Assembly: GCA_002862205.1 (NCBI GenBank)
Contig: PKCN01000011.1
Span: 1 to 42,270, forward strand
Reading direction: 5' to 3'
DNA from: Planctomycetaceae bacterium
Lineage (GTDB): Bacteria; Planctomycetota; Planctomycetia; Pirellulales; Pirellulaceae
DNA: 42,270 nt
Position numbers and translations under genes: made by a program. Positions 3,003 to 18,870 of this stretch are shown piece after piece. Positions within the stretch are counted from its first letter, which is position 1. Each line of letters opens with the position of its first letter. The notes below the pieces were generated by a model that did not search any database, had not been told where the DNA came from, and saw nothing but the letters and a program-made list of their open reading frames with translations.

Positions 3003-4952
3003 ATGATGTCTCTGATTAGGAGATCGCACTGTCTTCGAGTACGCGTGCAACATCGTGTCGTGGCTGCTTGTGTGCTCTGCTGTGTTCTCTGCTGTGTAAT
3101 GAGCGGGCATTCCTGGGCACAAAATCATGTCAGTACTCAGACCCCGGTGGGGATTGAAACCGCATTGATAGCGGCCACGAAGGCCCTGGACGCGGTGGCC
3201 CAATCCACAGCCGTGCCCCAATCCACCGCCGTGGATGTAGAGGTGCTACCATCTACCCAGGGGGTTAGCACCATCCCACAAGTCAACATTCCACTACCGG
3301 TCCAGCACGGACCTTACCGGGGGCAACTGGATCAATACCGGGTTCGAGCTGCGGAAATAAACGATGCCGATGCTGGCACTTCGACTGACCTGACGCTACC
3401 GGTTGCATCGGAGGAGATTTGGTGGCAGGAAATGGTCGCCAGTCCCATTGGGTTGTCCAGAAGAACATTACCTGTGGACTTGAACGGGTTGACGCAGACG
3501 GCCCTCGCCTGCTCCCCATTGGTCAAGAGCATTCTTACCGAACCGCGGATACGTCGAAGTGATCTGGTCGTTGCTGATGCTGAATTTGATACCACCGCGT
3601 TCATCGAAGGAAACTTTGCAGATACCAACGAGCCAGTGGGAAGCTTGTTGACGACAGGCAATGACGCAACCCGCTTTCGTGATCAAACCTTTTCGTCCGC
3701 TGCCGGGCTAAGAAAAAGGTCCCGAGCTGGTGGTTCTCTTGAATTAGTGCAGCGGGGTGGATTTCAAGCCAATAATTCCTCTTTGTTGGATCCCAACCCA
3801 CAGGGAACAACACGGCTTGAAATTAACTTCACACAACCGCTTCTCAAAGATCATGGTCGCGCTGTCAATAATACTCGTGTGCTGCTGGCGCAGATTGATA
3901 TTGAATTGGCGAAAAGTGACGTGCGATCCGAGCTTGAAAAACACCTCGTCGATGTGACCCGGGCCTACTGGGATTTGTTTGGAGCACGGGCGGGCTGGTT
4001 GCAACGCAACAGGTTATTGGAGGGGGCGATTGACTTGCACGCAATTCTGGTTGCACGGGATAGCGTCGATTCATTGAAACGGCAAATTCTGCGTGCTGAA
4101 GTAGCAGTTGCCAGCCGACGGTCAGATCTCGTTCGGGCTGAAACAAGAATTCGGAATGCACAGGCTCGATTGAGAGTGCTGACCGGTGATCCACGATTGG
4201 TCCAAAGTGCGGCCTGGGAACTTACCCCCCAGGAATCACCGCTCAGCATGCCGGTCAGTCTATCGACCAAAGAAGCCACAATCACTGCGTTGGACAACCG
4301 ACCCGACATTGCCAAGTCGATCCGGCAAATTCAATCTGTCTCAGCTCGCGTGGGTGCTGCCCGTAATCAGGTGCTTCCCCGTTTGGATATGATCCTGAGC
4401 ACTTATGTGGCGGGACTTGATCCTCAACGCGATACCTTTGGGGCCTTTGTCAATCAGTTCAGTGATGGACGTCCGAGTTATGCAGCAGGTTTATTGTTTG
4501 AAGTACCACTGGGAAATCGGGCGGGTCGTGCCCGTCTGGAAAGAGGCCGCTGGGAATTAACGCGGGCCATCCACGATTTCCAGCAAACCACAGATGTGGC
4601 GTTCACTGAGGTTGAAGTTGCTGTTCGGGAAACGCACACAGCACTTGGTGAAATGGTGACCAAGCAGCAGGCCATTGAAGCAGCGAGCCATGAGGTCAGC
4701 TACCTCAATCAGCGCTGGAAACTACTTCCCGATCCGGGTGAGTCAGCAGTGTTACTGATCGAAAATCTGCTTGATGCACAAGAACGACTGGCCGATGAGG
4801 AGCGGGGGTTTGTTCAGGCGCAAATGGCATACGCGATGTCATGGGTGCTGTTGCGTCAGGCGATGGGTGTTTTATTGCGATTCGAATCCGTGCCAGAGGA
4901 TTGCATGATCGTGGCAGAGGATGTCCCCCATTCGGGAGCTGCACGCAAATGA
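3003..4952 (+). CDS. TolC-family outer-membrane efflux/secretion channel
   Basis: Predicted 649 residues. The N-terminus has a basic stretch, a hydrophobic Cys-rich core (VLCCVLCCVM) and a likely cleavage after SWA (about residue 39), so the mature protein enters the periplasm and outer membrane. Residues about 50-150 form a spacer of low similarity to other families. Two outer-membrane efflux repeats follow: long amphipathic helices (LEKHLVDVTRAYWDLF, RAETRIRNAQARLRVLTGDP), NRPDI near residue 430, the beta segment FEVPLGNRAGRARL, and the final helix DAQERLADEERGFVQAQMAYA. This is the standard TolC/OprM layout, somewhat longer than usual because of the N-terminal spacer. It heads a tight operon and overlaps the SecA-like gene by ATGA. 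The trimeric channel would accept cargo from the HlyD-type adaptors encoded downstream. Confidence 0.9.
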   Translation: MMSLIRRSHCLRVRVQHRVVAACVLCCVLCCVMSGHSWAQNHVSTQTPVGIETALIAATKALDAVAQSTAVPQSTAVDVEVLPSTQGVSTIPQVNIPLPVQHGPYRGQLDQYRVRAAEINDADAGTSTDLTLPVASEEIWWQEMVASPIGLSRRTLPVDLNGLTQTALACSPLVKSILTEPRIRRSDLVVADAEFDTTAFIEGNFADTNEPVGSLLTTGNDATRFRDQTFSSAAGLRKRSRAGGSLELVQRGGFQANNSSLLDPNPQGTTRLEINFTQPLLKDHGRAVNNTRVLLAQIDIELAKSDVRSELEKHLVDVTRAYWDLFGARAGWLQRNRLLEGAIDLHAILVARDSVDSLKRQILRAEVAVASRRSDLVRAETRIRNAQARLRVLTGDPRLVQSAAWELTPQESPLSMPVSLSTKEATITALDNRPDIAKSIRQIQSVSARVGAARNQVLPRLDMILSTYVAGLDPQRDTFGAFVNQFSDGRPSYAAGLLFEVPLGNRAGRARLERGRWELTRAIHDFQQTTDVAFTEVEVAVRETHTALGEMVTKQQAIEAASHEVSYLNQRWKLLPDPGESAVLLIENLLDAQERLADEERGFVQAQMAYAMSWVLLRQAMGVLLRFESVPEDCMIVAEDVPHSGAARK

Positions 4953-6904
4953 TTGGCAAATGGATCGCGCAAAACAGTTGGGCAACGCGTGCCGGGCACA
5001 CGTCAAACCGCTTCAAATCGAATGATGTCTTTCCCCGGACAATCCAAACAGCAAGACAAGTAGCAGCGAGCTTGCATGGATCCACCACGCGTGAGTTTCA
5101 AAACCATGCACAGAAATTACGTCGCTTTTCACAAATCAACTCATGTCTCAATGATGATTCATTGTTGGCACTTGTCTGCGGCACGGTTTGTGAGGCCGTT
5201 CAGCGTGTGCTTGGATTCGAAATGTTCGATGAGCAGTTGAAGGCTGGGGCGGCGGTGTCCATGGGTGCGACGGTGGAAATGCAAACAGGAGAAGGCAAGA
5301 CGTTGGCCTTGGCAATACCTGCCTGCTGTCATGCCCTGACTGGGTGTGCTGTTCATGTTGTAACCCCCAATCACTACTTGGCTGGGCGGGACTGCCGGCT
5401 GTTGAGGCCCGTTTATGATTTGATGGGAATTTCAGTAGGGCTTCTTCTTGAGAATGCCACTGCAGCGCAGAAGAGAGATGCGTACGATGCAGATCTTACC
5501 TATGGACCAGCTCACGCATTTGGGTTTGATTATCTTAGTGATCAACTGACACTCGGACGCATGGATGAACTGAGCACCGGTGGTCATGCGTACCGGCGAG
5601 TGATGGGACAGGGGCTGGAAAAAGAGCTGCTGCAAAGAGGACTGCATACAGCGATCATTGACGAGGCTGACCATGTGCTCATCGATGACGCGGTCTCACC
5701 TTTGATACTCAGCGAAATGCGGTCTGATGCTAAATCTCCCGATGGCCCGGCACATCTGGCGGCTCGCAACATCCTGAATGACTTGGAGCCGGAATTGGAC
5801 TTTGCGTTCGTCGATCCAAATCAGGTGCAATTGACTCAACGCGGTTTTCAGACCGTTTATCGCGATGCAACGTTTGCAATGTTTCCCGGAATCGTGAGAC
5901 CTTGGCACGAGTATGTCACCCTGGCACTGAAAGCTGAGCACGTTCACCAACGAGACGTGCACTATATTGTGCGTGACCAACAGATCCAGATCGTGGATGC
6001 TTCGACGGGGCGGATTTTTGAGAGCAGAAATTGGTCTGACGGTTTGCATCAGGCCGTCGAAGCCAAGGAGGGGCTCGAAATCAGTTGTGAGTCCCGACCG
6101 CTTGCGCGCATCACGCGGCAACGCTTCTTCCGCAAATACAGGCAAGTTTGCGGTGTCACCGGAACGGCGTCAGGCTGCGAGAAGGAATTGGCAAAGAACT
6201 ATGGAACACCGGTCATTGAGATTCCAGTTCGTCTGCCATCTCAAAGAAGCTATTGGGAAACGCACTTCTCTGAGACTCAGGAACAGAAACAGAACGCAAT
6301 CGTCGCGGAGACGCGACATTGTATCGAGAGCCGTCGAGCTGTCCTGATTGGTACTCCGAGCATTGCGGAGAGTCAGGCGATCTCGCAATTGTTGGAAACC
6401 AACGGGCTCACACATCGACTTCTCAATGGTATTCAGGATGCTGAAGAAGCTGACGTGATCACACATGCTGGACGCGCTGGAGCGATCACGGTTGCCACCA
6501 ACATGGCTGGCCGAGGTACAGACATAAAATTGGAACCACAAGTAGCAGCCAACGGCGGTTTGCATGTGATTGTGACTCAGATGCATTCCTTTGCCCGTGT
6601 CGATCGTCAGTTGATCGGAAGATGTGCGCGTTGCGGCGATCCCGGCAGTAGTCGTGTTTTCGTGGCGTCAGATGATCCACTGCCTTCCGTCGTGGCACCG
6701 TGGATTGGACGTGCGATTCGCCGTTTGCCGACTTCCAAGGGTGCGGCCGTAGTCGCAGTTCAGTCACATCTTGCCAGTGCCCAGAAAAAACAGGAACGTC
6801 TGGCAGCATCACTCAGATGGCGAATGCTGCAGGCAGATAGAGAAACTCAACGGCTGCTCGAAAAAAACAAATTACCCGGACGATGTTTCAGTCTGGTGGG
6901 TTGA
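4949..6904 (+). CDS. SecA-like ATPase, short form lacking most of the C-terminal third
   Basis: The ATG at 4949 overlaps the TolC-like stop (ATGA), giving 651 residues and probable translational coupling. The SecA motor is recognisable: Walker A TGEGKT (K117), Walker B DEAD (238-241), the preprotein cross-linking region and second motor start (HYIVRD...IVDASTGR, GLHQAVEAKEG, VTGTA), TNMAGRGTD (517-525), and the last helicase motif RQLIGRCARCGDPGSS (553-568). Bacterial SecA is about 900 residues. Here only about 85 follow the last motif, so the helical wing, most of the scaffold and the zinc-binding tail are missing. The second motif has Cys at positions usually S/A and Q. It sits among a TolC channel and HlyD adaptors, with no other ATPase in the module, so it may drive export of a dedicated substrate (inference). 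It could instead be a Sec paralogue cooperating with the housekeeping SecYEG. Confidence 0.88.
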   Translation: MIGKWIAQNSWATRAGHTSNRFKSNDVFPRTIQTARQVAASLHGSTTREFQNHAQKLRRFSQINSCLNDDSLLALVCGTVCEAVQRVLGFEMFDEQLKAGAAVSMGATVEMQTGEGKTLALAIPACCHALTGCAVHVVTPNHYLAGRDCRLLRPVYDLMGISVGLLLENATAAQKRDAYDADLTYGPAHAFGFDYLSDQLTLGRMDELSTGGHAYRRVMGQGLEKELLQRGLHTAIIDEADHVLIDDAVSPLILSEMRSDAKSPDGPAHLAARNILNDLEPELDFAFVDPNQVQLTQRGFQTVYRDATFAMFPGIVRPWHEYVTLALKAEHVHQRDVHYIVRDQQIQIVDASTGRIFESRNWSDGLHQAVEAKEGLEISCESRPLARITRQRFFRKYRQVCGVTGTASGCEKELAKNYGTPVIEIPVRLPSQRSYWETHFSETQEQKQNAIVAETRHCIESRRAVLIGTPSIAESQAISQLLETNGLTHRLLNGIQDAEEADVITHAGRAGAITVATNMAGRGTDIKLEPQVAANGGLHVIVTQMHSFARVDRQLIGRCARCGDPGSSRVFVASDDPLPSVVAPWIGRAIRRLPTSKGAAVVAVQSHLASAQKKQERLAASLRWRMLQADRETQRLLEKNKLPGRCFSLVG

Positions 6905-6934
6905 ATTAATGCTCGCTTCATTTTTGTGGAATTC

Positions 6935-7795
6935 ATGATGGATATCATTGACTGGCGAATCACGACTCTCGCTCTGGCGATGCTGGTAGCGAGTAAGGCT
7001 GCGGCACAGGAAATCGAAACCTTTGTTGAACCTTATCGTGCTGCGGCACTGTCGACGACCGAGACGGGAGTCCTGGAACAAATCGTTGTGGAGGATGGTA
7101 GTCGCGTTCAAATTGGGCAAACACTGGCATGGTTGAATGACGATGTCCTGCATGCGTCGCTGAAGGTAGCTGACGCGGGCAGGCAAGCCAAAGCGGCTCT
7201 CAAAATTGCGGTCAATGAGGCTGCAATCTGCTTGCGACAACTTGAAAGCTATCGTTCTCTGCGCGAAAACGGTAACGCGACCGAACGTGAATTGGAACGA
7301 TCGCAAAGTGATTACATGCAGGCCGATGCTCGACTTGAAAACGTGCGAGAGGAACTCGCCGTTCGGTCACTCGAATATGCCCGCGTGCAAGCACAAATCG
7401 AGCAGAAGAAAATCAGGGCTCCTTTTGACGGTATCGTCGTTCGCGTGGACAAGGAAGTGGGGGAACAGGTTTCACCGACAGATCCTGTTGTTCTGCATCT
7501 TGTGCAAATCAAAACATTGAAGGCGCTCTTTTCTGTACCCGTTGATGCAGCCAGTGGTCTGCGTCCGGGCCATGTACTCAGACTGAGTATCGGGAACGGC
7601 GAGGAAACCCGAAACGGTGTGATCGAGCATGTCTCAGTAGTCGCAGACGCGACGAGCGGGACGGTCAGTGTGACAGTGCGAATACCAAATGCAGAGGGAA
7701 AAATAAAAAGTGGTTTGGCATGTCGTTGGAATCTGAAGCAACAGGCGAATGATGAAAATGCAAAACGGTTCGATGCATCACGCAGGGCTTATTGA
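6935..7795 (+). CDS. Secreted HlyD/RND-type periplasmic adaptor, module A
   Basis: The start is placed at ATG 6935. ATG 6938 and GTG 6926 are possible alternatives, as GGA at 6928-6930 is the only ribosome-binding-like sequence. The protein has 286 residues. Its signal peptide ends near AAAQE (about residue 25). A split lipoyl/barrel-sandwich domain follows (TETGVLEQIVVEDGSRVQIGQ, and later IRAPFDGIVVRVDKEVGEQV), interrupted by an alpha-helical hairpin (about 75-160) suited to docking on a TolC channel. A beta-barrel region with RPGHVLRLSIG and a short C-terminal region complete the fold. Adaptors of this size normally bridge an RND or ABC pump to TolC, but no pump is encoded beside it. It is 30 bp downstream of the SecA-like gene and 26 bp upstream of the GAF-adaptor gene. 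Confidence 0.85.
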   Translation: MMDIIDWRITTLALAMLVASKAAAQEIETFVEPYRAAALSTTETGVLEQIVVEDGSRVQIGQTLAWLNDDVLHASLKVADAGRQAKAALKIAVNEAAICLRQLESYRSLRENGNATERELERSQSDYMQADARLENVREELAVRSLEYARVQAQIEQKKIRAPFDGIVVRVDKEVGEQVSPTDPVVLHLVQIKTLKALFSVPVDAASGLRPGHVLRLSIGNGEETRNGVIEHVSVVADATSGTVSVTVRIPNAEGKIKSGLACRWNLKQQANDENAKRFDASRRAY

Positions 7796-7808
7796 AATGT
7801 GTTGCCTC

Positions 7809-7814
7809 AGGAGA
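7809..7814 (+). promoter_or_regulatory. Ribosome binding site deciding the start of the GAF-HlyD gene
   Basis: AGGAGA lies seven bases before ATG 7822. It favours this start over an in-frame TTG at 7792 that overlaps the previous stop codon. Confidence 0.75.
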
Positions 7815-7821
7815 CATTGGG

Positions 7822-9288
7822 ATGCTTGATCCATCGCTGCTTGCCGGTCAGAAACGTGGAACAGATTCTGATTCCAGTCGCGCAGTCGATGCTGCCGAAT
7901 TGGATATGCGATTAACGCAGTCAGATCTTGGTTTGCGGATGTTAGCCACGTTGGTTGAGTTGTTGACAACTCTCGACACACATACAGATCTTCCTGCCGC
8001 AGCAAATTATGTCAGTCGATTGACCAGAGAAATACTCTCTGCAAATCAGGTGATGGTGTTTTGGCGACGTGACTCGCAAAGCGGTCTCAAACGGGTAGGT
8101 GATGCGGGCGATCCGGGGCGTGCAGCGGATCCGGTACTTGACCACCTGGCACTGGCTGCCGCAGAGGAAACGGTTGTTCGCCGTGGGTACTTTTGCTGGA
8201 AAGATCCTTCCGCAGTGCAAATCGGTGGCCCGTCAGGAGATCGGGATGGGATGCTGGCCGTGGCACAGTTTGCACGTGCATGTGGTTCGAGTGTTGTCAG
8301 TGGTATCCCGCTTCAGTGCATCGGTCAGGATGCGTGTGGTGTCATGCTTGTACTGACAGAACAGCAGGATGATTCCGAGATGCTGTTGGAAACAGTTGTA
8401 GAGCCCATTGCACAAAAGCTGGAGAGCATCGAATCGACCCAGCCGAACTGGCTTGAACGGAAAGTCCGTGGCTGGCAAGGTACGTTCAGTCGGGGCAATC
8501 GACGCTTGATCGTTGCAGTGGGGGTGGTGTTGTTCACGATTGGCATGCTTCCGGTGCGTTACGTTGTTCCAGCCAACATTGAATTGCAAGCTGAGCAACG
8601 AAGATTTGTCGCAGTTCCGTTTGATGGGCCATTGCGGTCATCAACGGTTCGCCCGGGGGATCTTGTAAACGAAGGGGACCTGTTGGCGGAGATCGATCCA
8701 CGGGAATTGGAATATGAACTTTCGGGAGTCAATGCTGAATTGGAAAAAGCCCTGCAGGAAAAAAAAGCCAAGATGGTGGAACGCAATGTCGCCGGCAGCC
8801 AAATGGCGGAACTCGATTCACAACGGCTACGCAGCGAAGCAGACTTGCTGATGCTGCGTCGTCAGAATCTTGAAATTCGCAGTCCGATTACCGGCGTGAT
8901 TGTACGAGGGGATCTGGAGCGTTCGTGGGGCATGCCAATGATGCGAGGCGATACGCTCTTTGAGGTTGCCCCACTGGAAGTGATGCAGGTGGAAATCGCC
9001 ATTCCTGAACGGGAAATTCGGCACGTGCGAACCGGAATGACGGTCGATTTCTCCGTTGATGCCTTGCCCGACCGAGCACTGCAGGGAACGTTGCTTTGGA
9101 TTCATCCCCGTGCTGAACTGATTGAAAACGAGAATGTCTTCATTGCCCGCATGGAACTTGTAAATCCAGATTTGCTGTATCGACCCGGAATGCATGGCAG
9201 AGCCCGGATCAGAAGTGACCGACATCCCCTGATCTGGAATTACTTTCATAAGCCGTATTACGCCCTACGCCATTCACTGGGGTGGTGA
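7822..9288 (+). CDS. GAF domain - transmembrane helix - HlyD adaptor fusion, module A
   Basis: Predicted 488 residues. Residues about 30-205 form a cytoplasmic GAF-like domain (NYVSRLTREILSANQVMVFWR, SSVVSGIPLQ, ACGVMLVL). A single membrane helix at about 227-250 (LIVAVGVVLFTIGMLPVRYVV) leads into the periplasm. The periplasmic part is a HlyD-type adaptor: first lipoyl half FVAVPFDGPLRSSTVRPGDLV (about 258-298), a short coiled-coil hairpin, second half LEIRSPITGVIVRGDLE, and a beta-barrel ending YRPGMHGRARI. Classical HlyD has a short cytoplasmic tail, not a GAF domain, so this protein may let a cytoplasmic ligand control the periplasmic machine (inference). It lies only four bases before the M50 fusion gene. 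A one-domain counterpart of the GAF-GAF protein in module B. Confidence 0.85.
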   Translation: MLDPSLLAGQKRGTDSDSSRAVDAAELDMRLTQSDLGLRMLATLVELLTTLDTHTDLPAAANYVSRLTREILSANQVMVFWRRDSQSGLKRVGDAGDPGRAADPVLDHLALAAAEETVVRRGYFCWKDPSAVQIGGPSGDRDGMLAVAQFARACGSSVVSGIPLQCIGQDACGVMLVLTEQQDDSEMLLETVVEPIAQKLESIESTQPNWLERKVRGWQGTFSRGNRRLIVAVGVVLFTIGMLPVRYVVPANIELQAEQRRFVAVPFDGPLRSSTVRPGDLVNEGDLLAEIDPRELEYELSGVNAELEKALQEKKAKMVERNVAGSQMAELDSQRLRSEADLLMLRRQNLEIRSPITGVIVRGDLERSWGMPMMRGDTLFEVAPLEVMQVEIAIPEREIRHVRTGMTVDFSVDALPDRALQGTLLWIHPRAELIENENVFIARMELVNPDLLYRPGMHGRARIRSDRHPLIWNYFHKPYYALRHSLGW

Positions 9289-9292
9289 CCGG

Positions 9293-11479
9293 ATGCCAAA
9301 GCGTGACCTGAATACGATTGACCTTGTGCAACAAAAACTGCGTCTGGCAGAGGATGTGATGGTCTGGCCTGTTCGCGAGTGTGGCGAGCTTGTTTACCGC
9401 TTTGAAATTCCTTCGTTACATCAATTCTTTCGCGTTGGATATGCCGAGTATGTATTGATTTCGATGCTGGACGGGAAAACCACGCTTCCAGAAGCATGTG
9501 GGCTGGCTGCCTCTGAACTGGGGCCAGACGCACCGACAGCCGCTCAGGCATCGACAATCGCTCGCTGGCTGATCGATCATCAACTGGCTTGTCTGGAGGA
9601 TGAGCCTGCACCCGAGCGGATTGCAAAATTCCACAAAGGATCGCCTGATTCGTCACAGCAAGATGGTGCAAACAAAAATCGCCTGAGAGGATTGAATCCC
9701 TTTTGGTTGAAAGTACCCTTGCCAAAATCTGGAACATGGGTTCCCGCGTTAGCAGGCAAACTCAAACCTCTCTGTTCTATTTATGGTGCAGCCGCTTCAT
9801 TGCTGATCTGTTTCCTTGCAGCATGGCAGTTCACGATCCACTCTGATCAGTTTCTCAGCACCTCGGTGGAAGTGTTTCATCGATCCAACTGGATCTATCT
9901 GCTGTTCACTTGGGTTTTTCTCAAGTTTGTGCATGAACTAGCGCACGCTGTCGTCTGCACACAGACGGGTTCCGAGGTGAGTGAAGCAGGGCTGGTGTTC
10001 GTGCTCTTGGCGCCACTTGCTTACGTTGATGTGACAAGTTGTTGGCGTTTGACGAATCGGTGGAAAAGAATTGCTGTCGCTGCAGCGGGTATGTACATCG
10101 AGTTGGTGATTGCATCCATCGCATTTCTCGTGTGGTTGAATGTGACAAGCCTTCAGTCGAAGTTTTTGTTGGATAACGTCATCTGGATGGCTGGTGTTTC
10201 AACGCTGCTGTTCAATTTTAATGTGTTGATGCGTTTTGATGGCTACTGCATTCTTGCTGATCTTGTGGAAATTCCAAACCTCTACGGTGAATCCAGTCGA
10301 GCGGTCCAGAACCTGTTCCGCAGATTGATTGTGGGGCAGGCGTCTGAACCGAGTCACCTGCATGGGTGGCGACGAAAGTTTGTACTGTGGTACGGACTTG
10401 CCGCGCTAGCTTGGCGAATTTTTATCTGTGTGTCACTGACGATCGCCGCATCAGTCATGTTTTCTGGTGCCGGAATTTTACTTTCTCTGGTCGGCATCTA
10501 TTTGTGGTTTGCTGGTCCGCTTAGACGGCTCAGCAAGTTCTGGATGCTGCTCTGGCGTTCCGAGCCCGAGCGAGCCATCAGGTCAACTGTTTTCTCCATG
10601 ATTGGACTTGTTGCCCTCTACATCATGCTGTTTGTCGTTCCCTTTCCAACTGCGATCAAAGTGCCTGCCATCGTCGAATACACTCCCGCAACCATTGTGC
10701 GCAGCGGAGTCACCGGTTTTGTTCGCGAAATTCACGTCACGGAAGGCCAGCAGGTTGAATTGGGACAGACTCTGATGGAAATCGAAAATGATGAGCTGGT
10801 GAATCGACTTGAGCAACTTGAAATCAAAAAACAACAATGCGAAATCGAGATCTCGTTGGCTGTGGATGAACACAACGCAGCGCGGGCTTATGTGAATCGA
10901 CAGGTCTTGGGCTCACTGCTTGAACAGATCGATAATCTGAAGCGACAGGTTCAATGCATGAATGTGACAGCACCGCGTGCCGGAAGGATTGTTGTGCGTG
11001 ATCTGGATGGCCTGCTTGGCACATTTGTTGAAGAAGGTACTCAACTGATGAATGTTGCTGATGAAGCGAGCAAAGAAATCATTGCCATGGTGGGGCAACA
11101 GGAAATTGATGAAGTCAGGGCGTTGGTAAATGCTGAGGTCAATGTCTGTACCGCTGGGTGGAATTTATCGCCTGGAGTCCTTGAGGTGGTTGAGCCGCAG
11201 GCGACAGACACGCTGGCGTGGAAAGCACTGGCTGCGACCGAGGGAGGCCCCTTGCCGGTCCGGGAGTATCGTGACGACCAGGACACGGCTTCGTTACGTT
11301 TGCTGGAACCGCTGTTCCAGGCTAGGATCCAACCAACGGGGATCATGTCGACGGAGTTACCGGCTGGAATGCGTGTCACCGCCTCGATCGGATATCGTAC
11401 AGAAACCATTGCAACGCGCGCCAGTCACTGGGTCTCCCAGTGGTGGCAGGACGCAAAGGCACAGAGTCGCCGGGATTGA
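9293..11479 (+). CDS. PqqD-like / M50 site-2-type metalloprotease / HlyD fusion membrane protein, module A
   Basis: Predicted 728 residues. Residues about 20-105 resemble the PqqD winged-helix fold (FRVGYAEYVLISMLDGKTTLPEA), the peptide-binding element found in many modified-peptide systems. Several membrane helices follow, with the zinc motif HELAH (214-218) and the second M50 motif RFDGYCILADLVEIPN, whose Asp is residue 316. Both metal-binding motifs look intact, so the protease could be active within the membrane. After the last helix (about 440-455) comes a HlyD-type lipoyl domain (VRSGVTGFVREIHVTEGQQVELGQ), a short helical hairpin, APRAGRIVVRDL, and a beta-barrel to the C-terminus. It closes module A. 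It may cleave a leader or act as an inner-membrane platform (both inferred). Its paralogue lies at 15963-18200. Confidence 0.85.
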   Translation: MPKRDLNTIDLVQQKLRLAEDVMVWPVRECGELVYRFEIPSLHQFFRVGYAEYVLISMLDGKTTLPEACGLAASELGPDAPTAAQASTIARWLIDHQLACLEDEPAPERIAKFHKGSPDSSQQDGANKNRLRGLNPFWLKVPLPKSGTWVPALAGKLKPLCSIYGAAASLLICFLAAWQFTIHSDQFLSTSVEVFHRSNWIYLLFTWVFLKFVHELAHAVVCTQTGSEVSEAGLVFVLLAPLAYVDVTSCWRLTNRWKRIAVAAAGMYIELVIASIAFLVWLNVTSLQSKFLLDNVIWMAGVSTLLFNFNVLMRFDGYCILADLVEIPNLYGESSRAVQNLFRRLIVGQASEPSHLHGWRRKFVLWYGLAALAWRIFICVSLTIAASVMFSGAGILLSLVGIYLWFAGPLRRLSKFWMLLWRSEPERAIRSTVFSMIGLVALYIMLFVVPFPTAIKVPAIVEYTPATIVRSGVTGFVREIHVTEGQQVELGQTLMEIENDELVNRLEQLEIKKQQCEIEISLAVDEHNAARAYVNRQVLGSLLEQIDNLKRQVQCMNVTAPRAGRIVVRDLDGLLGTFVEEGTQLMNVADEASKEIIAMVGQQEIDEVRALVNAEVNVCTAGWNLSPGVLEVVEPQATDTLAWKALAATEGGPLPVREYRDDQDTASLRLLEPLFQARIQPTGIMSTELPAGMRVTASIGYRTETIATRASHWVSQWWQDAKAQSRRD

Positions 11480-11526
11480 GAACTCTGATGTGTCGATCGC
11501 ACAGAGTGGTTGAAAGCTGTGCCCAG

Positions 11527-11575: not shown

Positions 11576-11607
11576 CAACGGTTTGCAGTTGTCATCACTT
11601 TCATGAA

Positions 11608-11937
11608 TCAATCACCCTCAAAGATGGCATTCTTGATCGACTGAACGATTGATCGACGATTGGTCGATGACTGTGTCGCGCGATCCACATCGACACCAAG
11701 TACTTTTCCCAGCCGAATTGCCAAGTCCAGATCACGGACACCGTGGTATTGATTGGTCGCCCTGTTGGAAACATAAATGGTTTCAGCATCCGTCGTGTAG
11801 CCGGATTCAATGGCATCAGACATCTCCTGAATCCAGGCTTGTGGGACTCCCGAGTTGCGACATGTCTCTTCGTTCCAGATCTCGTCTCCGACACAGAGGT
11901 TCAAGATGGCTAGAGCACGGTGGCGTGGAATGGACAT
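11608..11937 (-). CDS. Small protein of unknown function (109 residues)
   Basis: I do not recognise this family. The start chosen is ATG 11937 (MSIPRHRALAILN). The frame can be extended to 12090, but that part is Arg/Ser/Pro-rich and looks non-coding. No clear ribosome binding site is visible. The protein is mixed alpha-helical, with no signal peptide or membrane helix. It has a hydrophobic N-terminal helix, a central GVPQAWIQEMSDAIESGY, then YHGVRDLDLAIRLGKVLGVDV, and a C-terminal helix SIVQSIKNAIFEGD. The gene lies 191 bp downstream of the other small minus-strand gene and is probably co-transcribed with it. The pair separates the two export modules. Confidence 0.65.
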   Translation of the reverse strand: MSIPRHRALAILNLCVGDEIWNEETCRNSGVPQAWIQEMSDAIESGYTTDAETIYVSNRATNQYHGVRDLDLAIRLGKVLGVDVDRATQSSTNRRSIVQSIKNAIFEGD

Positions 11938-12128
11938 GGGATCGATGGTGGCGTGGCTTGGGACGAGACGTTGTTGAGATACCCGGATGGGCACGGATGG
12001 GAATGAGTTCAGTTCATCATGGCTGTCATCGAAACGCTCTCTGCATGTCGATTCGGGATGGCTGGGACATTCTACCTGCCATGATCTCAACCTATCCCAA
12101 AGCGAGCGAGCATCAGCACTCTGCGGGT

Positions 12129-12536
12129 CTAATCTTTCGACGATTTGGCCAATGTTTGACGAGGCTTCCGCGGCGGCTTCGCGACGAGACGGATGATCGG
12201 AACCGTTTTTCGACCGCCGTGGAAGGTTCGCTTGCCGTCAATGGTGTGATCGAAAACAAAGACTCCACTGCTGTTGCCGCGCGGTGATACACGGAGGATG
12301 GCGGGATGACCGCATTCCAGGCATTGGACACGCAAGCCGTGGCTGTCCAGAAGTTGATGGATCGACTCCGCCAGCTCGCGATTACGCTCCAGTTCCTCGA
12401 ACGAACGGCCTACCAACTTGGAGAGCTGACCCTGAATTGCCATACGGATGGTGCGCTGCAGGCGATTGAGTTCCTGATTCAATTCCAGCAATGCCGTTTC
12501 GGCTTCTGCGGGGGAGATTGTCTGCGGAGCTGACAT
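12129..12536 (-). CDS. Protein of unknown function with helical N-terminus and Cys-pair (135 residues)
   Basis: I recognise no named family. Residues 8-65 are predicted to be a long amphipathic helix or helical hairpin (ALLELNQELNRLQRTIRMAI, FEELERNRELAESIHQLL). A compact C-terminal half contains C-L-E-C followed by GHPAILRVSPRG, VFVFDHTIDGKRTFHGG and a basic tail (AKPPRKPRQ). A single CxxC pair is not enough to claim a zinc ribbon. Start ATG 12536 has no strong ribosome binding site. The gene is divergent from the GAF-GAF-HlyD gene, and a perfect 17-bp-arm palindrome lies 76 bp upstream of its start, so the two transcription units may share control. Confidence 0.75.
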   Translation of the reverse strand: MSAPQTISPAEAETALLELNQELNRLQRTIRMAIQGQLSKLVGRSFEELERNRELAESIHQLLDSHGLRVQCLECGHPAILRVSPRGNSSGVFVFDHTIDGKRTFHGGRKTVPIIRLVAKPPRKPRQTLAKSSKD

Positions 12537-12611
12537 GCAGATGTTGCGAACGTTCGAAAAGGAGGGATACGGTTGGGTAGGGCGAGATTTTGAAAAGAAC
12601 GCCGGTTCTTA

Positions 12612-12646
12612 CTGGACATGTTATACAATTTGTATAACATGTCCAG
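12612..12646. promoter_or_regulatory. Perfect 35-bp palindrome (17-bp arms, 1-bp centre) between divergent genes
   Basis: CTGGACATGTTATACAA is followed by one T and its exact reverse complement. It lies in the 283-bp gap between the minus-strand gene starting at 12536 and module B starting at 12820. The inner part contains TATAC/GTATA, which resembles a -10 box in both directions. Perfect symmetry and position suggest an operator for a dimeric regulator or a bidirectional promoter. The lack of a T-tract argues against a terminator. The rest of the gap shows no other gene or repeat. Confidence 0.6.
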
Positions 12647-12819
12647 AGTGGAGTTTGTTCAGGAGCGTGCAATCCCGAGGAAATTTCAGAAAAATCAGTA
12701 AAATCGCCGGATGGATGAGGTTTTTCCCGCGTAGTTCAACGTGGCGGGAAAACCGCAAATTCACTAGTGTTTCGTTTTGTCCTATCCGTCCTCCCCTTTC
12801 GCACGATCGCTGAACGCCC

Positions 12820-14880
12820 ATGTCGGTCAATCAACAAACCGTCGAGGACACCAAGGCCCAAATCCGGGGGCTGGTGAACGAAATTGCCCAGCTGTCCAAA
12901 AGTGGGGCTACTGCAGAGGAGTTCTATCCGGAACTGCTTTCTCGCATCATTACAGCGTTGGCTGCTGCGGGGGGAGCGATTTGGTTGTTGGATGAGGATA
13001 GGCAACTCAGTCTGCAGTACCAGATCAATGCTGAACCGTCGATCCTGGATGACGAAACCGAAGATGCGATCCGTCATACTCGTTTGATTCAGCGCGTCGC
13101 CAACACGGGGCAGTCACTATTGGTTCCTCCGTATTCCGGGACCACCGATGGTGACGGTGAGGGTAACCCGACGGGATTCCTGCTCTGTCTGGGGGCCTTG
13201 CAGCATGATGGTCACAACGATGGCTTGATCGAGATCTTTCAGCGACCGGGAACCGCACCTGACACACAGAGAGGTTATCTTCGCTTTTTACAGCAGATGT
13301 GTGAATTGGCTGCTGAGTGGTTGCGAAGCCAGAAGTTGAGAACCTTGGGTGATCGTCAGACCTTGTGGCAGCAGGCTGATTCATTCGCCCGTGCCACGCA
13401 CGAATCGCTTGATTTGAAAGAGACGGCTTGCATTGTCGCCAATGAAGGCCGGCGTTTGATTGGTTGTGACCGTGTGAGTATTGCGATCAAAAAGGGGCGC
13501 AAATGCAAAGTCCAGGCGATCAGTGGACAAGACACGATCGAGAATCGTTCCAACATTGTCACTGCTTTGAACAATCTGGCGACGCGGGTTGTCGCTGCGG
13601 GTGAGCCATTGTGGCACGATGGAGCGACGGAGGATTTGCCACCGCAAATCGAGGAAGCGTTGGAAGATTACGTTGACCAGTCATACGGACGAAACATAGC
13701 GGTTTTGCCTCTCCGCGAGCCTGAGCGTCGTTTGGGGGTGGACAATGAGTCCGGAGCCGCGGGTGAGATTGATCGTGACAACGCGCATCGGGGTGAAGTG
13801 ATTGGTGCCTTGATTGTGGAGCAGATTGAAAGCGATATTCCAGAGGATGTGTTCCGTGCTCGCTGCGATCTGGTTTACGAACATGGCACCAGGGCCATTG
13901 CCAATTCACGGGCTTATTCCAATCTGTTTCTGATGCCGTTGTGGAGAACTTTGGGACGAGCCAGTTGGGTGCTCAGGGCCAGGACGCTACCCAAAACCAT
14001 TGGCGTTGTTGGATTATTGCTGACTGTGGTTCTTGGCCTGACCTTTGTCAAGAAAGACTTCAACCTCGAGGCAGAGGGAACACTGGTACCGTCCGAGAAA
14101 CGTGAGATCTTTGCACCCATCGACGGTGAGGTCATTGCCGTTAATTTCGACCATGACGATCCCGTTGAACAGAATGATATTCTGATTGAATTGCGGAATC
14201 GGGATATCGAAATTCAAATCGCTGATATCGAAGGGCAAATTCAAACCAACTTGGCGGAGCAAGCCAAGGTGCAAGGTCAGTTGAGTCGTCGTCAGCTTTT
14301 GAAACCGTCTGAGTTGCGGTCACTGCAAGCCGAGAAAAATGAATTGCTAACCAAAGATACGGTTCTGCAGCGAAAACTGCAGCTGCAGAGGGACCGTAAA
14401 GCGGAGTTGATGATCAGATCGCCCATTCAGGGTAGGGTCGTGTCCTGGGATGTCGAAAAAAATCTACGAATGCGACCGATCATGACAGGACAGGTGCTGA
14501 TGGAAGTAGCTGACCTCGAGCAAAATCTGGTGCTTGAGGTAGAGTTGCCGGAAAAGCGGGAAGGGCACCTCGACGAATACATTGCTCAGCAGGGTTTGAG
14601 CAACTTGGACCAATTGTCTGTCACCTATATCCTGGCAACTGACCCTGATGAACCCATGGATGCCACCCTGCTGATCGATAGCATTGCGAAGCGTGCTGAC
14701 GCAAATGAAGAACACGGAGCAGTGATCAAAATGCGGGTGAATCCAGACCAAGCGACACTTAGAAACCTGCAGCCTCGTCCTGGAGCCAAAGTGATCGCGA
14801 AGATCTACTGCGGTCGCCGCAGTAGTGGTTTTGTCTTTTTCCACGAAATCTATGAGTGGTGCCACAAGTTCTTCTTTTAG
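12820..14880 (+). CDS. GAF-GAF - transmembrane helix - HlyD adaptor fusion, module B
   Basis: Predicted 686 residues. An N-terminal helix leads into a first GAF-like domain (about 25-170: LLSRIITALAAAGGAIWLLDE) and a second (about 195-385: TACIVANEGRRLIGCDRVSIAI, RNIAVLPLREP, GALIVEQ). One membrane helix at about 390-411 (TIGVVGLLLTVVLGLTFV) passes to a HlyD-type adaptor. That part has the first lipoyl half REIFAPIDGEVIAVNFDHDD, a coiled-coil hairpin (about 465-530), the second half LMIRSPIQGRVVSWDVEKN, and a beta-barrel ending PRPGAKVIAKIYCG. The layout matches the module A protein at 7822-9288 with one extra GAF domain. It is the first gene of module B, 50 bp before the secreted adaptor. 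The cytoplasmic GAF domains could couple a small-molecule signal to export (inference). Start ATG 12820 has only a weak ribosome binding site. Confidence 0.85.
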   Translation: MSVNQQTVEDTKAQIRGLVNEIAQLSKSGATAEEFYPELLSRIITALAAAGGAIWLLDEDRQLSLQYQINAEPSILDDETEDAIRHTRLIQRVANTGQSLLVPPYSGTTDGDGEGNPTGFLLCLGALQHDGHNDGLIEIFQRPGTAPDTQRGYLRFLQQMCELAAEWLRSQKLRTLGDRQTLWQQADSFARATHESLDLKETACIVANEGRRLIGCDRVSIAIKKGRKCKVQAISGQDTIENRSNIVTALNNLATRVVAAGEPLWHDGATEDLPPQIEEALEDYVDQSYGRNIAVLPLREPERRLGVDNESGAAGEIDRDNAHRGEVIGALIVEQIESDIPEDVFRARCDLVYEHGTRAIANSRAYSNLFLMPLWRTLGRASWVLRARTLPKTIGVVGLLLTVVLGLTFVKKDFNLEAEGTLVPSEKREIFAPIDGEVIAVNFDHDDPVEQNDILIELRNRDIEIQIADIEGQIQTNLAEQAKVQGQLSRRQLLKPSELRSLQAEKNELLTKDTVLQRKLQLQRDRKAELMIRSPIQGRVVSWDVEKNLRMRPIMTGQVLMEVADLEQNLVLEVELPEKREGHLDEYIAQQGLSNLDQLSVTYILATDPDEPMDATLLIDSIAKRADANEEHGAVIKMRVNPDQATLRNLQPRPGAKVIAKIYCGRRSSGFVFFHEIYEWCHKFFF

Positions 14881-14918
14881 AACGAAGCCACTTCTGCCAA
14901 CCAATATCTATCTTTTCC

Positions 14919-14922
14919 GGAG
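14919..14922 (+). promoter_or_regulatory. Ribosome binding site deciding the start of the module B secreted adaptor
   Basis: GGAG lies eight bases before ATG 14931. That start gives a clean signal peptide. The in-frame ATG at 14856 would overlap the previous gene and hide the signal peptide behind 25 residues. Confidence 0.7.
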
Positions 14923-14930
14923 TTTTCAAG

Positions 14931-15854
14931 ATGCGGTTTACATTATCTGTTTTGTATCTCGCTATCGCCACAACGATTCCTGCATTTGCACAGCAGGCGG
15001 CGGTTTCGAAGCAAGCACTTGAGGTAGAAAACTGTGTGGTGCAGTACATCAACAAGGTCGATGTTCCAGCGAGAGCTGAGGGGACGCTGACTGAGTTGAA
15101 AGTGGATGAAGGGGTCAACGTTGCCAAAGATGAAATACTTGCGATCATCGATGATACGGCAGCCAAAATCACTGTGTCGCTAAAAGAGGCGGAGGAAAAA
15201 GAGGCCATTCTGAATGCGACCAATGAAGTCAATCTGAATGATGCCAAGAACAGCGAAGAGCTTGCCAAGGCTGAGGCCGAGGCCTACGAGGAACTGCGAC
15301 GTGAGCGGGCCATTCCCTATTGGGAGCTCGAAAAGAAAAAACTCGAAGCTGAGCGCGCGCTCCTGCGGATTGATCTTGCCGAAATGCAAAAGAGCATTGC
15401 TCAGGTGCAGGCGTTTGGGAAGAGACAGGAACTGGCCTTGGCAAAGTACGAATTGGAACGCCGTAAAGTGGTTGCTCCGTGGGATGGGTTCATCGAATCC
15501 AGACGGGCACAGCTTGGTGAGTGGGTTCAGCCGGGGACACCTCTTCTGACCCTGATTCAGATGGACAAGTTGCGGGTTGAAGGGGACATCGACGCGTTGG
15601 CATCCCGAAAAGTTGTCAAAGGTACAAAAGTCGAAGTTCGTATTTTTGATAAAAACTCAAGCTCAAGTTCAAGCTCAAGTTCAAGCTCAAGTTCAAGCTC
15701 GGAGCAAAAGCCAATTGAGGGAACCTTGGGCTATGTGAGTATGGAGGTCGACTTGAACAGCCGGCATCGGGTTTGGGTGGAAATCGACAATGTCAAAGAT
15801 GATGGTGTCTGGCGTTACAAGCCAGGGATGACAGCAGAAATCACAATTCCCTGA
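14931..15854 (+). CDS. Secreted HlyD/RND-type periplasmic adaptor with poly-serine tract, module B
   Basis: Predicted 307 residues. The signal peptide MRFTLSVLYLAIATTIPAFA is cleaved before QQ. A lipoyl first half follows (NKVDVPARAEGTLTELKVDE), then a long acidic coiled-coil hairpin (about 80-175, rich in EAE and KKLEAER) and the second half RRKVVAPWDGFIESRRAQLGEWV. A beta-barrel ends YKPGMTAEITIP. Fifteen consecutive serines (243-257) interrupt the barrel between KVEVRIFDKN and EQKPIEGTLG, probably as a flexible loop. This is the module B counterpart of the adaptor at 6935-7795. It would bridge an inner-membrane component to a TolC channel, but module B has no channel of its own and may share that of module A (inference). 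Confidence 0.85.
   Translation: MRFTLSVLYLAIATTIPAFAQQAAVSKQALEVENCVVQYINKVDVPARAEGTLTELKVDEGVNVAKDEILAIIDDTAAKITVSLKEAEEKEAILNATNEVNLNDAKNSEELAKAEAEAYEELRRERAIPYWELEKKKLEAERALLRIDLAEMQKSIAQVQAFGKRQELALAKYELERRKVVAPWDGFIESRRAQLGEWVQPGTPLLTLIQMDKLRVEGDIDALASRKVVKGTKVEVRIFDKNSSSSSSSSSSSSSSSEQKPIEGTLGYVSMEVDLNSRHRVWVEIDNVKDDGVWRYKPGMTAEITIP
15657..15701 (+). repeat. 12-bp coding microsatellite encoding 15 serines
   Basis: Alternating AGC/TCA/AGT/TCA codons form a nearly perfect repeat of AGCTCAAGTTCA across 45 bp. Any gain or loss of a 12-bp or 3-bp unit keeps the frame, so length variation would change only the serine loop of the adaptor. Confidence 0.9.
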
Positions 15855-15962
15855 TCGCTTCTTTCACTCACCGATCAACCTCCAGTTACAACGTTCCAAT
15901 CTTTTTGAGAATCACTCCTTCGCTCTGAATTCTATTCGCAAAGATAATTTGTATCGCGTTTC

Positions 15963-18200
15963 ATGACCACGTTAGCCGAATCCCTCGTTAGCAGCTCATC
16001 AAGGCCGCTGACGGTCCGAAAACGCCCTGACCTGACGGCAAACCGTCAGTTCTATCAGGGTACGGCTTATTGGGTGGTCAAAGAGCCAGTGGGTTTGCAG
16101 TATTTTCGTTTTCACGAAGAAGAGTATTTCATTCTCAAAATGCTCGATGGGCATGTTAGCCTGCAGCAAATCAAAGATGGTTTTGAGCGGCGTTTCGCCC
16201 CTCAGAAAATCACCTTCGGTGATCTACAGCAGTTCATCGGTATGTTGCACCGAAGCGGGCTTGTGATCAGTAATTCACCTGGTCAGGGGAAAGCACTTCG
16301 GGAGCGTGGTCGCAAGAAAAAGAATAAAGAGACGTTGGGCAAGTTCGCTAATGTCTTTGCGCTAAGGTACCGCGGGTTTGACCCTGAAAAAATCCTCAAC
16401 GGGATTCTGCCGTGGTTTGGATGGCTCTTTACAGTACCTGCCCTTCTCTTCTTCACCTTGTTTCTGGCTTCCGCTGCACTGTTGCTCGCTACCCAGTACG
16501 AAACGGTCTACGCCAAGTTACCAACTTTTCAGCAATTCTTTGCCGCAGATCGTTGGCTGATCCTTGCCTGCACCATGGCAATTGTGAAGGTCTTGCATGA
16601 GTTTGGTCATGGCCTGAGTTGCAAGAAGTTTGGTGGTGAGTGTCATGAAATTGGTTTCATGCTGCTGGTGTTTACGCCCTGTCTTTACTGCAATGTATCC
16701 GATTCCTGGATGCTGCCAAACAAATGGAAGCGGGTCTGGATCGGGGCAGCTGGTATTTACGTCGAAATGATCCTGGCATCGATAGCGACGTATGTCTGGT
16801 GGTTTACCGAATCCGGGACGACGATTAATGATCTATGTCTGAATATGATGTTCTTGAACGTCGTCAGTACGGTATTAGTCAATGGTAACCCGCTGCTGCG
16901 ATTCGACGGCTACTACATCCTGATGGACGCGTTGGAAATTCCCAATCTGCGTCAAAAGAGTACTGAGGTGCTGAAACGCTGGTTTCAGGAGACATGCCTC
17001 GGATTGGAATTGCAGGACGATCCTTTTCAGCCCACACGTGGCCGATTCATGTTCGGCTTGTTCACGATTGCCAGTGTCATCTACCGCTGGGTCGTCGTGT
17101 TTTCGATTTGTTGGTTTGTGATCAAGGTCCTCGAGCCTTATGGGCTTCAGGCGATTGGACGGATGGTTGCGGTTATTGGTTTTGCCGGTTTGGTGGGGCA
17201 ACCCATCATCCAAACATGGAAATTTTGTCGAACTCCTGGGAGATTGTCCAAAGTGAAACGCACTCCCCTGTTAATCACATTGGGAATTGTTGCCAGTGTT
17301 CTGGTTGGTGTTTGCTACATACCGTTGCCTCACCACATTGATTGTGCATTTGAAATTCGTCCCAGCAAAGTCGGGACGGTTTATGCCGGTACCTCCGGCA
17401 GGATTGAGTGGGCGATTGAACCTCGCACGTCGGTTGAAGAAGGCCAGCAGATTGCCAGACTGATCAACCGTGATCTTGAAATTCGTTTGGCGGATCTCGA
17501 GGGCCAGGAATTAGTCGCCAATGCCCAACTCAAGACAATTCAATTGAGAAGCCGTGAGGACGTCTATCTGAAGGCTTCGATTGATACTCAGGAAGAACTG
17601 ATCAAGTCGATTCAATCGATGATTGCCGAGACCCAAAAAGAGGTCGAGCGTTTGACCCTGGTTGCCAAGCGATCTGGGGTTGTGATTTCACCACCCACTC
17701 GTGAGCCCCAAAAAGAGAACGACGGAAGATTGCCCGGTTGGACAGGGTCGCCACTGGATCAGGAAAACATTGGCGCACTTTTGACGCCGGGTGATGTGAT
17801 TTGTGAAATCGGAAATGATCAGGACTTCGAGGCCGTACTGATCATCGACCAAGGCGATGTGCAATTGGTCCGTGAAGGGCAGGAGGTCGAAATGAAGCTG
17901 GATTCTCGAAGGCTTGAAACCTTTGGAGGCATCATTGAAGAAAAATCAAATGAACCGCTCGATGCGGCCACCTTGGGGATGTCCAGTCAAACGGGTGGAG
18001 ATCTGCAGACCGAGATTGATCCCACCACAGGCATGATCATGCCAAGAAGTGTGTCCTATCAAGCACGCGTTCCATTGGTGATCGATGGGACACCGCTGAG
18101 GTCTGGGTACCGGGGATCCGCAAAAATTCACGTTGCACCCATGTCGTTGGGCAGCCGACTTTGGCGTGTGATTGTGAAAACATTCAATTTTGAACTTTAG
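15963..18200 (+). CDS. PqqD-like / M50 site-2-type metalloprotease / HlyD fusion membrane protein, module B
   Basis: Predicted 745 residues. An N-terminal PqqD-like region (about 40-105: YFRFHEEEYFILKMLDGHVSL, MLHRSGLVIS) is followed by a basic linker (RERGRKKKNKE). Several membrane helices carry the zinc motif HEFGH (212-216), a Cys pair in FTPCLYCNVSDSW, and NPLLRFDGYYILMDALEIPN with the second-motif Asp at 315. Both metal-binding motifs are intact. After helices to about residue 455 comes a HlyD lipoyl region (YAGTSGRIEWAIEPRTSVEEGQQ), a helical hairpin (about 500-565), and a second half with LVAKRSGVVISPPTREPQ. The beta-barrel contains an insert rich in polar residues (about 660-700). It has the same architecture as the module A protein at 9293-11479, so the two derive from duplication. 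The 108-bp gap upstream is larger than elsewhere in the module. No ribosome binding site was found at 15963. Confidence 0.85.
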   Translation: MTTLAESLVSSSSRPLTVRKRPDLTANRQFYQGTAYWVVKEPVGLQYFRFHEEEYFILKMLDGHVSLQQIKDGFERRFAPQKITFGDLQQFIGMLHRSGLVISNSPGQGKALRERGRKKKNKETLGKFANVFALRYRGFDPEKILNGILPWFGWLFTVPALLFFTLFLASAALLLATQYETVYAKLPTFQQFFAADRWLILACTMAIVKVLHEFGHGLSCKKFGGECHEIGFMLLVFTPCLYCNVSDSWMLPNKWKRVWIGAAGIYVEMILASIATYVWWFTESGTTINDLCLNMMFLNVVSTVLVNGNPLLRFDGYYILMDALEIPNLRQKSTEVLKRWFQETCLGLELQDDPFQPTRGRFMFGLFTIASVIYRWVVVFSICWFVIKVLEPYGLQAIGRMVAVIGFAGLVGQPIIQTWKFCRTPGRLSKVKRTPLLITLGIVASVLVGVCYIPLPHHIDCAFEIRPSKVGTVYAGTSGRIEWAIEPRTSVEEGQQIARLINRDLEIRLADLEGQELVANAQLKTIQLRSREDVYLKASIDTQEELIKSIQSMIAETQKEVERLTLVAKRSGVVISPPTREPQKENDGRLPGWTGSPLDQENIGALLTPGDVICEIGNDQDFEAVLIIDQGDVQLVREGQEVEMKLDSRRLETFGGIIEEKSNEPLDAATLGMSSQTGGDLQTEIDPTTGMIMPRSVSYQARVPLVIDGTPLRSGYRGSAKIHVAPMSLGSRLWRVIVKTFNFEL

Positions 18201-18492
18201 AGATCGAGGATCCAGTGGCGTCTCCTTTCACCCGATGGAAAAGTCGTCAGAGTAAATTGTGAAACAGGAAGAAACTTCAACCGAATAAGGTCGTCTTAGT
18301 TTGTAATCATGGAACCGTTGTTCATTCAGGTTCCGATCGCAAACAGGTGTATTAGCGGGCAACACCACAAGAGGATCCAACCGCCCACTAGGACTCCAGT
18401 TTCTGGGGTCAGTTTCCATTTTTGTTGACGATTACAGATTCCATTGAGTGATCGTCTTCCTAACAACTCCCAACCTTTCGGAGAATTCAACA
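18201..18492. other. Intergenic region before the DUF3467 gene
   Basis: This 292-bp gap contains no credible gene. GGAG at 18480-18483 is the ribosome binding site of the next gene. TTGACG near 18423 could be a -35 box, but no good -10 follows at normal spacing. No terminator for the M50 gene was seen, so read-through into the DUF3467 gene is possible. Confidence 0.4.
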
Positions 18493-18870
18493 ATGGCAGA
18501 TGAGACCAACCAAGAAGACGCGGCAAAGCCTGGCGCCGCCGCTGCAGCACAGACACAACAACCTGTTCAGGTTCAAGTGGTTGATGACGATGCTGCTGCA
18601 ACCTATGCCAACTTTTGTCGCGTGACGGGTTCACCGGAAGAGTTGATTGTTGACTTTGGTTTGAATCCGCAACCGATTGGGGTTCCCAAGGATCCAATTC
18701 AGGTCAAGCAACGTATCATCGTCAACTTCTACACCGCCAAGCGATTGCTGGCAGCTTTGCAGATGTCAGTTGCACGTCATGAGTCAGTCTTTGGAGTTCT
18801 GGAGACAGATATCAACAAACGGGTTCGACCTGGTTTGAGCCAGCAGGGTTCTGCCGAAAAGAAAAGCTAG
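18493..18870 (+). CDS. DUF3467 family protein
   Basis: Predicted 125 residues. ATG 18493 has GGAG nine bases upstream; the in-frame start at 18448 is rejected. The first 40 residues are low-complexity (Ala/Gln-rich, PGAAAAAQTQQPVQVQV). The rest fits DUF3467: YANFCRVTGSPEELIVDFGLNP, QVKQRIIVNFYTAKRLLAALQMSVARHESVFG. It is small, soluble and without a signal peptide. The biochemical function of the family is not known to me. It follows module B on the same strand after 292 bp, and a strong terminator follows it, so it may be the last gene of that transcription unit. The ending (QQGSAEKKS) is polar and probably disordered. Confidence 0.8.
   Translation: MADETNQEDAAKPGAAAAAQTQQPVQVQVVDDDAAATYANFCRVTGSPEELIVDFGLNPQPIGVPKDPIQVKQRIIVNFYTAKRLLAALQMSVARHESVFGVLETDINKRVRPGLSQQGSAEKKS

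Follow-up and report, generated by a model that had tools for sequence, protein, structure and literature searches.

The window, that is, the whole stretch of 42,270 nucleotides that was analysed, contains two sets of genes for HlyD-type adaptors, referred to here as modules A and B, and the 5' part of a giant gene. Its relevant features are:

2..2683, minus strand: giant gene, 5' part only (runs off the contig), with LEPR-type leader, DUF4347, choice-of-anchor Q stretch and Big_12 repeats
2910..4952, plus strand: TolC-family outer membrane channel of module A (OEP, E = 9.5e-24); translation probably begins at the in-frame ATG 3003
4841..6904, plus strand: secondary SecA_DEAD motor of module A without SecA_SW (Pfam); GEGKT and DEAD motifs intact
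6926..7795, plus strand: HlyD-type adaptor of module A with a signal-peptide-like start, likely at ATG 6935
7792..9288, plus strand: TM-HlyD adaptor of module A, without a GAF match in Pfam
9293..11479, plus strand: M50-HlyD fusion of module A (HELAH, FNVLMRFDGY); its N-terminal domain occupies the place of PqqD
12820..14880, plus strand: GAF-GAF-TM-HlyD adaptor of module B (Pfam)
14856..15854, plus strand: HlyD adaptor of module B, the ORF of which contains a signal-peptide-like stretch
15963..18200, plus strand: M50-HlyD fusion of module B (HEFGH, GNPLLRFDGY); sub-threshold PqqD match
18448..18870, plus strand: DUF3467 small protein after module B (Pfam), recurrent beside such operons

Positions 2910-11479 form a single, closely packed run of plus-strand genes encoding, in this order, the TolC, SecA-like, HlyD, TM-HlyD and M50-HlyD proteins. 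The TolC-family protein matches TIGR01845 and TIGR01844, both below the cut-off. Judging from the reading frame, the SecA-like gene is likely to start at ATG 4949, overlapping the TolC stop. Module B (12820-18200) comprises the GAF-GAF-TM-HlyD, HlyD and M50-HlyD genes, followed by the DUF3467 gene, and contains neither SecA nor TolC of its own. A small minus-strand gene without a Pfam or NCBIfam match (12129-12536) lies between the modules. As far as it was scanned, the remainder of the window is devoted to metabolism and transport and is unrelated to the modules. The gene order of the window is repeated in another locus, L106. DUF3467 small proteins recur near M50-HlyD operons (9/59 and 10/72 loci in two locus sets), and in loci L134, L156, L177 and L184 DUF3467 is found between, or close to, a giant ORF and the genes of the M50 operon.

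The ORF map and domain scans agree with the original prediction of two three-protein adaptor sets of near-identical architecture, with the first two adaptors in reversed order and with TolC and the SecA-like gene in module A only. Two of the predicted architectures hold in part. A GAF-TM-HlyD protein was expected in both modules; TM-HlyD proteins are indeed present in both, but Pfam detects GAF domains only in module B. The module A protein has no GAF match at E ≤ 1, and a relative, L105, has one at E = 0.011, which is under the cut-off. A PqqD-M50-HlyD fusion was likewise expected twice. M50-HlyD occurs twice, but Pfam PqqD (PF05402) has no match in the module A protein and only a sub-threshold one (E = 0.022) in that of module B. 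The view that the set is neither a standard type I nor an RND system is upheld: no ABC family was found among the window proteins scanned (leaving aside three larger ORFs at 31281-39075 and 41815), and the domain scan revealed no RND inner-membrane pump among the operon proteins.

The M50 proteins of the two modules share 21% sequence identity and belong to different clades of a FastTree tree; on these grounds we reject a recent tandem duplication of the modules. The M50 protein of module B clusters with those of loci L019, L027 and L033, which belong to the same order or family. L027 and L033 contain SecA, DUF3467 and an LE.R protein of 1,177 or 1,171 residues with a TM stretch, and in L019 both SecA and a LEPR-type ORF are absent. 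In the module B clade, 29 of 35 rows have neither a SecA nor a LEPR-type label; these labels were assigned per locus, so that module B's own label derives from the neighbours of module A. Module B is related to module A but divergent, and belongs to another clade.

The original prediction turned on whether the three gene types are randomly distributed in related genomes. Instead, one or more HlyD-family genes are present within 6 kb of M50-HlyD in 52 of 59 loci from a draw of Planctomycetota genomes and in 60 of 72 loci from a wider scan, these being the loci in which the M50 ORF was recognised (59 of 63 and 72 of 80, respectively). A short and a long adaptor occur together in 30/59 and 34/72 M50-HlyD loci, where 'long' denotes a length of >420 residues and not the presence of GAF. 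The co-occurrence of adaptor genes with M50-HlyD exceeds chance.

We reject the claim that a new export system has been discovered, as this type of locus was reported by Kamneva, Poudel and Ward in 2015, who described secondary SecA_DEAD / type I-related loci (PMC4452313). As in the window, wing-less SecA_DEAD, M50-HlyD, GAF-HlyD, HlyD and sometimes OEP are found together in these loci, which occur in overlapping phyla and in which, by that account, no ABC transporter was found. The window has the elements that define them, namely SecA_DEAD without SecA_SW and neighbouring M50-HlyD, HlyD and GAF-HlyD (GAF in module B only). It differs from the loci as described there in having a further, divergent set of adaptors that comes with neither SecA nor TolC. 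Kamneva et al. considered SecA as a possible ATPase and M50 as a possible membrane pore, and described the broader biological role of the loci as "completely unknown". The main text of PMC4452313 names no cargo and does not mention LEPR, DUF4347, a giant protein or DUF3467.

The giant gene and its leader

The best clue to function is the giant gene (2..2683, minus strand), which the original prediction had left unused. It starts divergently from module A and encodes a LEPR-type leader, LEERILYSA, at residues 40-48, a DUF4347 domain (PF14252) at residues 95-258 (E = 5e-51, 173 bits, compared with a gathering score of 24.6 bits), and Ig-like repeats, with a choice-of-anchor Q stretch and Big_12 repeats. 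Against the LEPR-XLL HMM (LEPR-8K, NF012209; cut-off 17 bits) the giant gene scores 19.7 bits in the genome scan and 15.1 bits in an hmmscan of the ORF.

The LEPR-type motif reads L-E-x-R-[IV]-[LVM]-[LFY]-[SD]-A and is located near the N-terminus. In 53 N-termini selected with a regular expression for LEPR, the starts of which were taken from ORFs and may be wrong, the motif is located at residue 34 (median), the net charge over up to 40 residues upstream of it is +3 (median), and a TM-like stretch is present within the first 70 residues in 2. The letters covered by the regular expression are conserved by construction, which is not the case for the preceding positions, where Glu is found at -2 in 32, Phe or Leu at -3 in 37, and Leu at -5 in 24 of the 53 sequences.

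A predicted model of DUF4347 (pLDDT 88) superimposes onto the type VI secretion effector Tce1 (9qpe), itself named as a DUF4347 protein, with a TM-score of 0.61 in Foldseek. With caspases the TM-scores are only about 0.4-0.47; the Foldseek E-values of these matches as a whole start at 4e-5. Neither His61 nor Cys104 varies among 15 DUF4347 sequences, and they follow strands 3 and 4, which we take to be the caspase topology. DUF4347 is thus predicted to have a clan CD caspase-like fold with a conserved His and Cys; that it acts in self-processing is a guess. The same genome contains two further DUF4347 genes. One of them, on C160, shares its contig with a gene for a SecA of the wing-less type, and the two are again oriented divergently. 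Around the other (contig C90), a profile search found no exporter gene within the 20 kb examined.

Association of LEPR proteins with M50-HlyD

LEPR giants, which mostly have no signal-peptide-like stretch, need some exporter. Our main reading, to which we assign a probability of about 60%, is that module A is a secondary-SecA_DEAD / M50-HlyD exporter locus whose cargo is the divergent giant with the LEPR-type leader. The cargo link draws on two genome draws and on gene neighbourhood in several phyla; the mechanism outlined further below is an inference.

At the genome level we used the LEPR HMM NF012209 (E ≤ 0.01 in Planctomycetota, E ≤ 0.001 in a gammaproteobacterial order) and, for M50-HlyD, NF041824 (E ≤ 1e-15 in Planctomycetota); these HMM tests are independent of the regular expression. 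Among 197 Planctomycetota genomes, LEPR is found in 15, spanning ten families, M50-HlyD in 46 and both in 14 (P = 3e-9, ignoring kinship). Among 194 genomes of the gammaproteobacterial order, that of a Pseudomaricurvus genome, the corresponding numbers are 18, 45 and 17 (P = 1.6e-11, again ignoring kinship). DUF4347 exceeds its cut-off in 15 of the 197 Planctomycetota, 12 of which have M50-HlyD (P = 2e-6); for strong DUF4347 matches (E < 1e-10) the numbers are 10 and 8 (P = 1.6e-4), kinship being ignored in both cases. Exceptions exist in both directions. LEPR occurs without M50-HlyD in G153 and G376 and, in a looser scan (E ≤ 0.05), in Deinobacterium chartae, and strong DUF4347 occurs without M50-HlyD in G037 and G063. 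Conversely, 32 of the 46 Planctomycetota and 28 of the 45 gammaproteobacterial-order genomes with M50-HlyD have no LEPR match by HMM.

The genes are also close to each other. Of the 22 LEPR genes in the gammaproteobacterial order, 13 are located within 10 kb of M50-HlyD; by a rough estimate from ~1.3 M50 genes per 4-Mb genome, well under one of the 22 would be expected by chance. Six of the eight Planctomycetota genomes with strong DUF4347 and M50-HlyD have both within 10 kb on one contig (G000, G005, G024, G034, G086, where this occurs twice, and G116). By our reading of the scans, only 3 of 35 HMM-found LEPR genes adjoin M50-HlyD in Planctomycetota (G000:C37, G144 and G160), and one machine serving distant cargo must therefore be assumed there.

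With the regular expression, ORF matches were obtained in 14 of 63 M50 loci compared with 1 of 20 control stretches from the same genomes; these are raw counts, the expression was written after the sequences had been seen, and the control is small and its stretches were not extended. A false match inside the M50 gene of L017 and a control match that does not look like LEPR (L104) were set aside, though both are included in the raw counts. Extending loci with open giant ORFs added three LEPR starts (LEERIAPAA, LEQRKMLTT and LEPRILLSA). We did not count the giant ORF upstream of L050 (L078), which has no visible start, or L024 (LEDRIAPAM), which fails the regular expression. In a wider scan of several phyla, 21 of 80 named M50 loci have a LEPR-type ORF within about 10 kb, including contigs titled Verrucomicrobia, Gammaproteobacteria, Desulfofustis, Desulfobulbaceae, delta proteobacterium and Omnitrophota. 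For 20 loci without a LEPR-type ORF, 16 of the genomes have a LEPR HMM match at E ≤ 0.05. In L156, L159, L161, L163, L177 and L184, a LEPR start and its open frame agree in their coordinates with the giant ORF reaching into the locus beside the operon, giving frames of 4,601 to 14,390 residues.

The LEPR giants might instead leave the cell by conventional type I secretion, through a HlyB-type ABC transporter encoded elsewhere in the genome, with M50-HlyD doing other work, such as anchoring or trimming. HlyD adaptors and a TolC-type channel are indeed common to the window and the HlyB-HlyD-TolC system, and a Vibrio LEPR-XLL protein of about 8,000 residues is described as carrying a C-terminal RTX region (PMC10868602). 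However, the HlyB model TIGR01846 exceeds its cut-off in a single genome among the 197 Planctomycetota (G148, which has no LEPR match). Loose HlyB-like ABC matches (E ≤ 1e-110) show no enrichment, occurring in 4 of 15 LEPR genomes compared with 112 of 197 overall, and there is none in the genome of the window; as this search scored only five candidates per genome, the absences are soft. Given the lack of enrichment in this search, we reject a HlyB-type exporter as the explanation of the LEPR link. ABC-like ATPase ORFs, recognised by motif, are found within 8 kb of M50 in just 4/59 and 4/72 loci, so that SecA is not generally replaced by an ABC gene. Apart from having no ABC transporter among the proteins scanned, the window differs from a type I locus in that an M50 protease is fused to an adaptor and that the cargo signal is predicted to be N-terminal rather than C-terminal. 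We regard type I export of the giants as improbable.

Components and proposed export route

PqqD-like domains are of a leader-binding type. The N-terminal domain of M50-HlyD matches PqqD over the curated cut-off only in relatives (L145 and L161), and among 42 aligned M50-HlyD proteins 10 have a match at E ≤ 0.1. Because this PqqD-like domain comes before the membrane part, it may be exposed to the cytoplasm. The M50 part matches models of RiPP leader-processing M50 proteases (daptide NF041824 and YydH/LiaK NF058609; 140 and 182 bits), and the daptide model also covers part of the N-terminal domain. M50-HlyD differs from these proteases in remaining below the daptide cut-off of 300 bits and in being fused to HlyD, and no peptide-modifying enzyme was noticed beside it. 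The Foldseek matches listed for the M50-HlyD model are of the adaptor type only (MacA, AcrA, MexA and kin) and are uninformative on the PqqD and M50 parts.

Intact M50 motifs (HExxH is kept in 60 of 60 ORFs examined) and the GAF domains of module B would also suit trans-envelope signalling, in which GAF sensors and a site-2-like M50 protease control the production of a giant surface protein rather than its export. A regulatory role for the GAF protein was in fact suggested by Kamneva et al. (PMC4452313). Such a system would not account for HlyD parts on all three proteins and for TolC and a SecA-type motor in one gene run, and giants that mostly lack a signal-peptide-like stretch would still require an exporter. 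Signalling in place of export thus seems to us a poor fit to the locus, and we give it little weight.

The SecA-like protein of the window has no Pfam match to SecA_SW, a domain that was detected in the canonical SecAs L197 and L198 used as positive controls; the two-helix finger and wing therefore appear to be missing. The profile of the wing-less family aligns to solved SecA only up to ~residue 610, and the preprotein-binding domain is retained. SecA2 accessory Sec motors share the DEAD, preprotein-binding and P-loop domains with the window protein, which differs from them in the missing SecA_SW match, and no SecY was seen in the operon.

Wing-less SecA, called by profile coverage and frame length, tracks LEPR in one group yet is dispensable. 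Among M50-HlyD genomes of the gammaproteobacterial order, it occurs in 10 of 17 with LEPR compared with 1 of 20 tested without (P = 5e-4), leaving 7 of the 17 devoid of it. The Planctomycetota numbers, 11 of 14 compared with 17 of 30, are not significant (P = 0.14), and the three without it are G144, G160 and G186. Two doubtful SecAs, that of G161 and the only one of G160, carry SecA_SW and are canonical. Given that several LEPR genomes do not have the wing-less form, we reject SecA as an obligatory motor, and the motor step is not general.

In L050 (11557-13509, genome G028), the SecA-like protein of the M50 operon has lost its Walker A and DEAD motifs, and its gene adjoins a giant RTX-like ORF of 6,566 residues that is open at both ends and fills the upstream stretch L078. 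The genome of the window encodes a third wing-less SecA-type protein (G000:C94:24911-26827, L083; 751 residues, no SecA_SW) near a contig end, with no match to the LEPR regular expression in the surrounding stretch.

That several LEPR genomes have only canonical SecA, and that wing-less SecA keeps its preprotein-binding domain, could point to a two-step route, in which canonical SecYEG/SecA delivers the giant to the periplasm, the adaptors and TolC lift it out, and wing-less SecA is an accessory. Against this, LEPR leaders do not resemble Sec signal peptides, as seen from the scarcity of TM-like stretches among the N-termini described above, and the PqqD-like domain, being positioned ahead of the membrane part, may be cytoplasmic. 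We consider a two-step route unlikely.

We infer that LEPR proteins are exported through the M50-HlyD machine, which may work as follows. The giant would lack a recognisable Sec signal peptide and carry the LEPR-type motif near its N-terminus. The PqqD-like domain with which the inner-membrane M50-HlyD protein begins would recognise the leader, and the wing-less SecA motor, where encoded, would feed the chain using ATP. The M50-HlyD, TM-HlyD and HlyD adaptors would join TolC, allowing the chain to exit in one step. The leader may be processed by M50 or by the caspase-like DUF4347 just behind it.

More tentatively, these elements could together constitute a distinct, ABC-free one-step pathway present in several phyla, with an N-terminal LEPR leader, a PqqD-M50-HlyD gate, giant cargo, a SecA-derived motor that is optional and a caspase-like domain for self-processing in some of the cargo proteins; we hold this broader proposal to be possible rather than probable. 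Relative to the known locus type, the candidate cargo, the LEPR giants, is the new element, and we found no literature in open-licence PMC that links LEPR or DUF4347 to an M50-HlyD exporter. A cargo class defined by sequence makes the function of loci whose role was given as "completely unknown" (PMC4452313) directly testable. If correct, the proposal would suggest an exit route for proteins of 4,000 to 14,000 residues in Planctomycetota, Verrucomicrobiota and some Proteobacteria, and a first joint function for DUF4347, LEPR-XLL and the M50-HlyD family.

The longest LEPR open frame found, of 14,672 residues, is located in a gammaproteobacterial genome beside wing-less SecA and M50-HlyD (G282:C1:3514097-3518859), where the M50 frame shows two stops. 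Locus L063 (9674-16698) contains three adjoining genes for proteins of 676-695 residues with the leader LEERVLFDA and DUF4347 beside M50-HlyD, a putative small cargo family.
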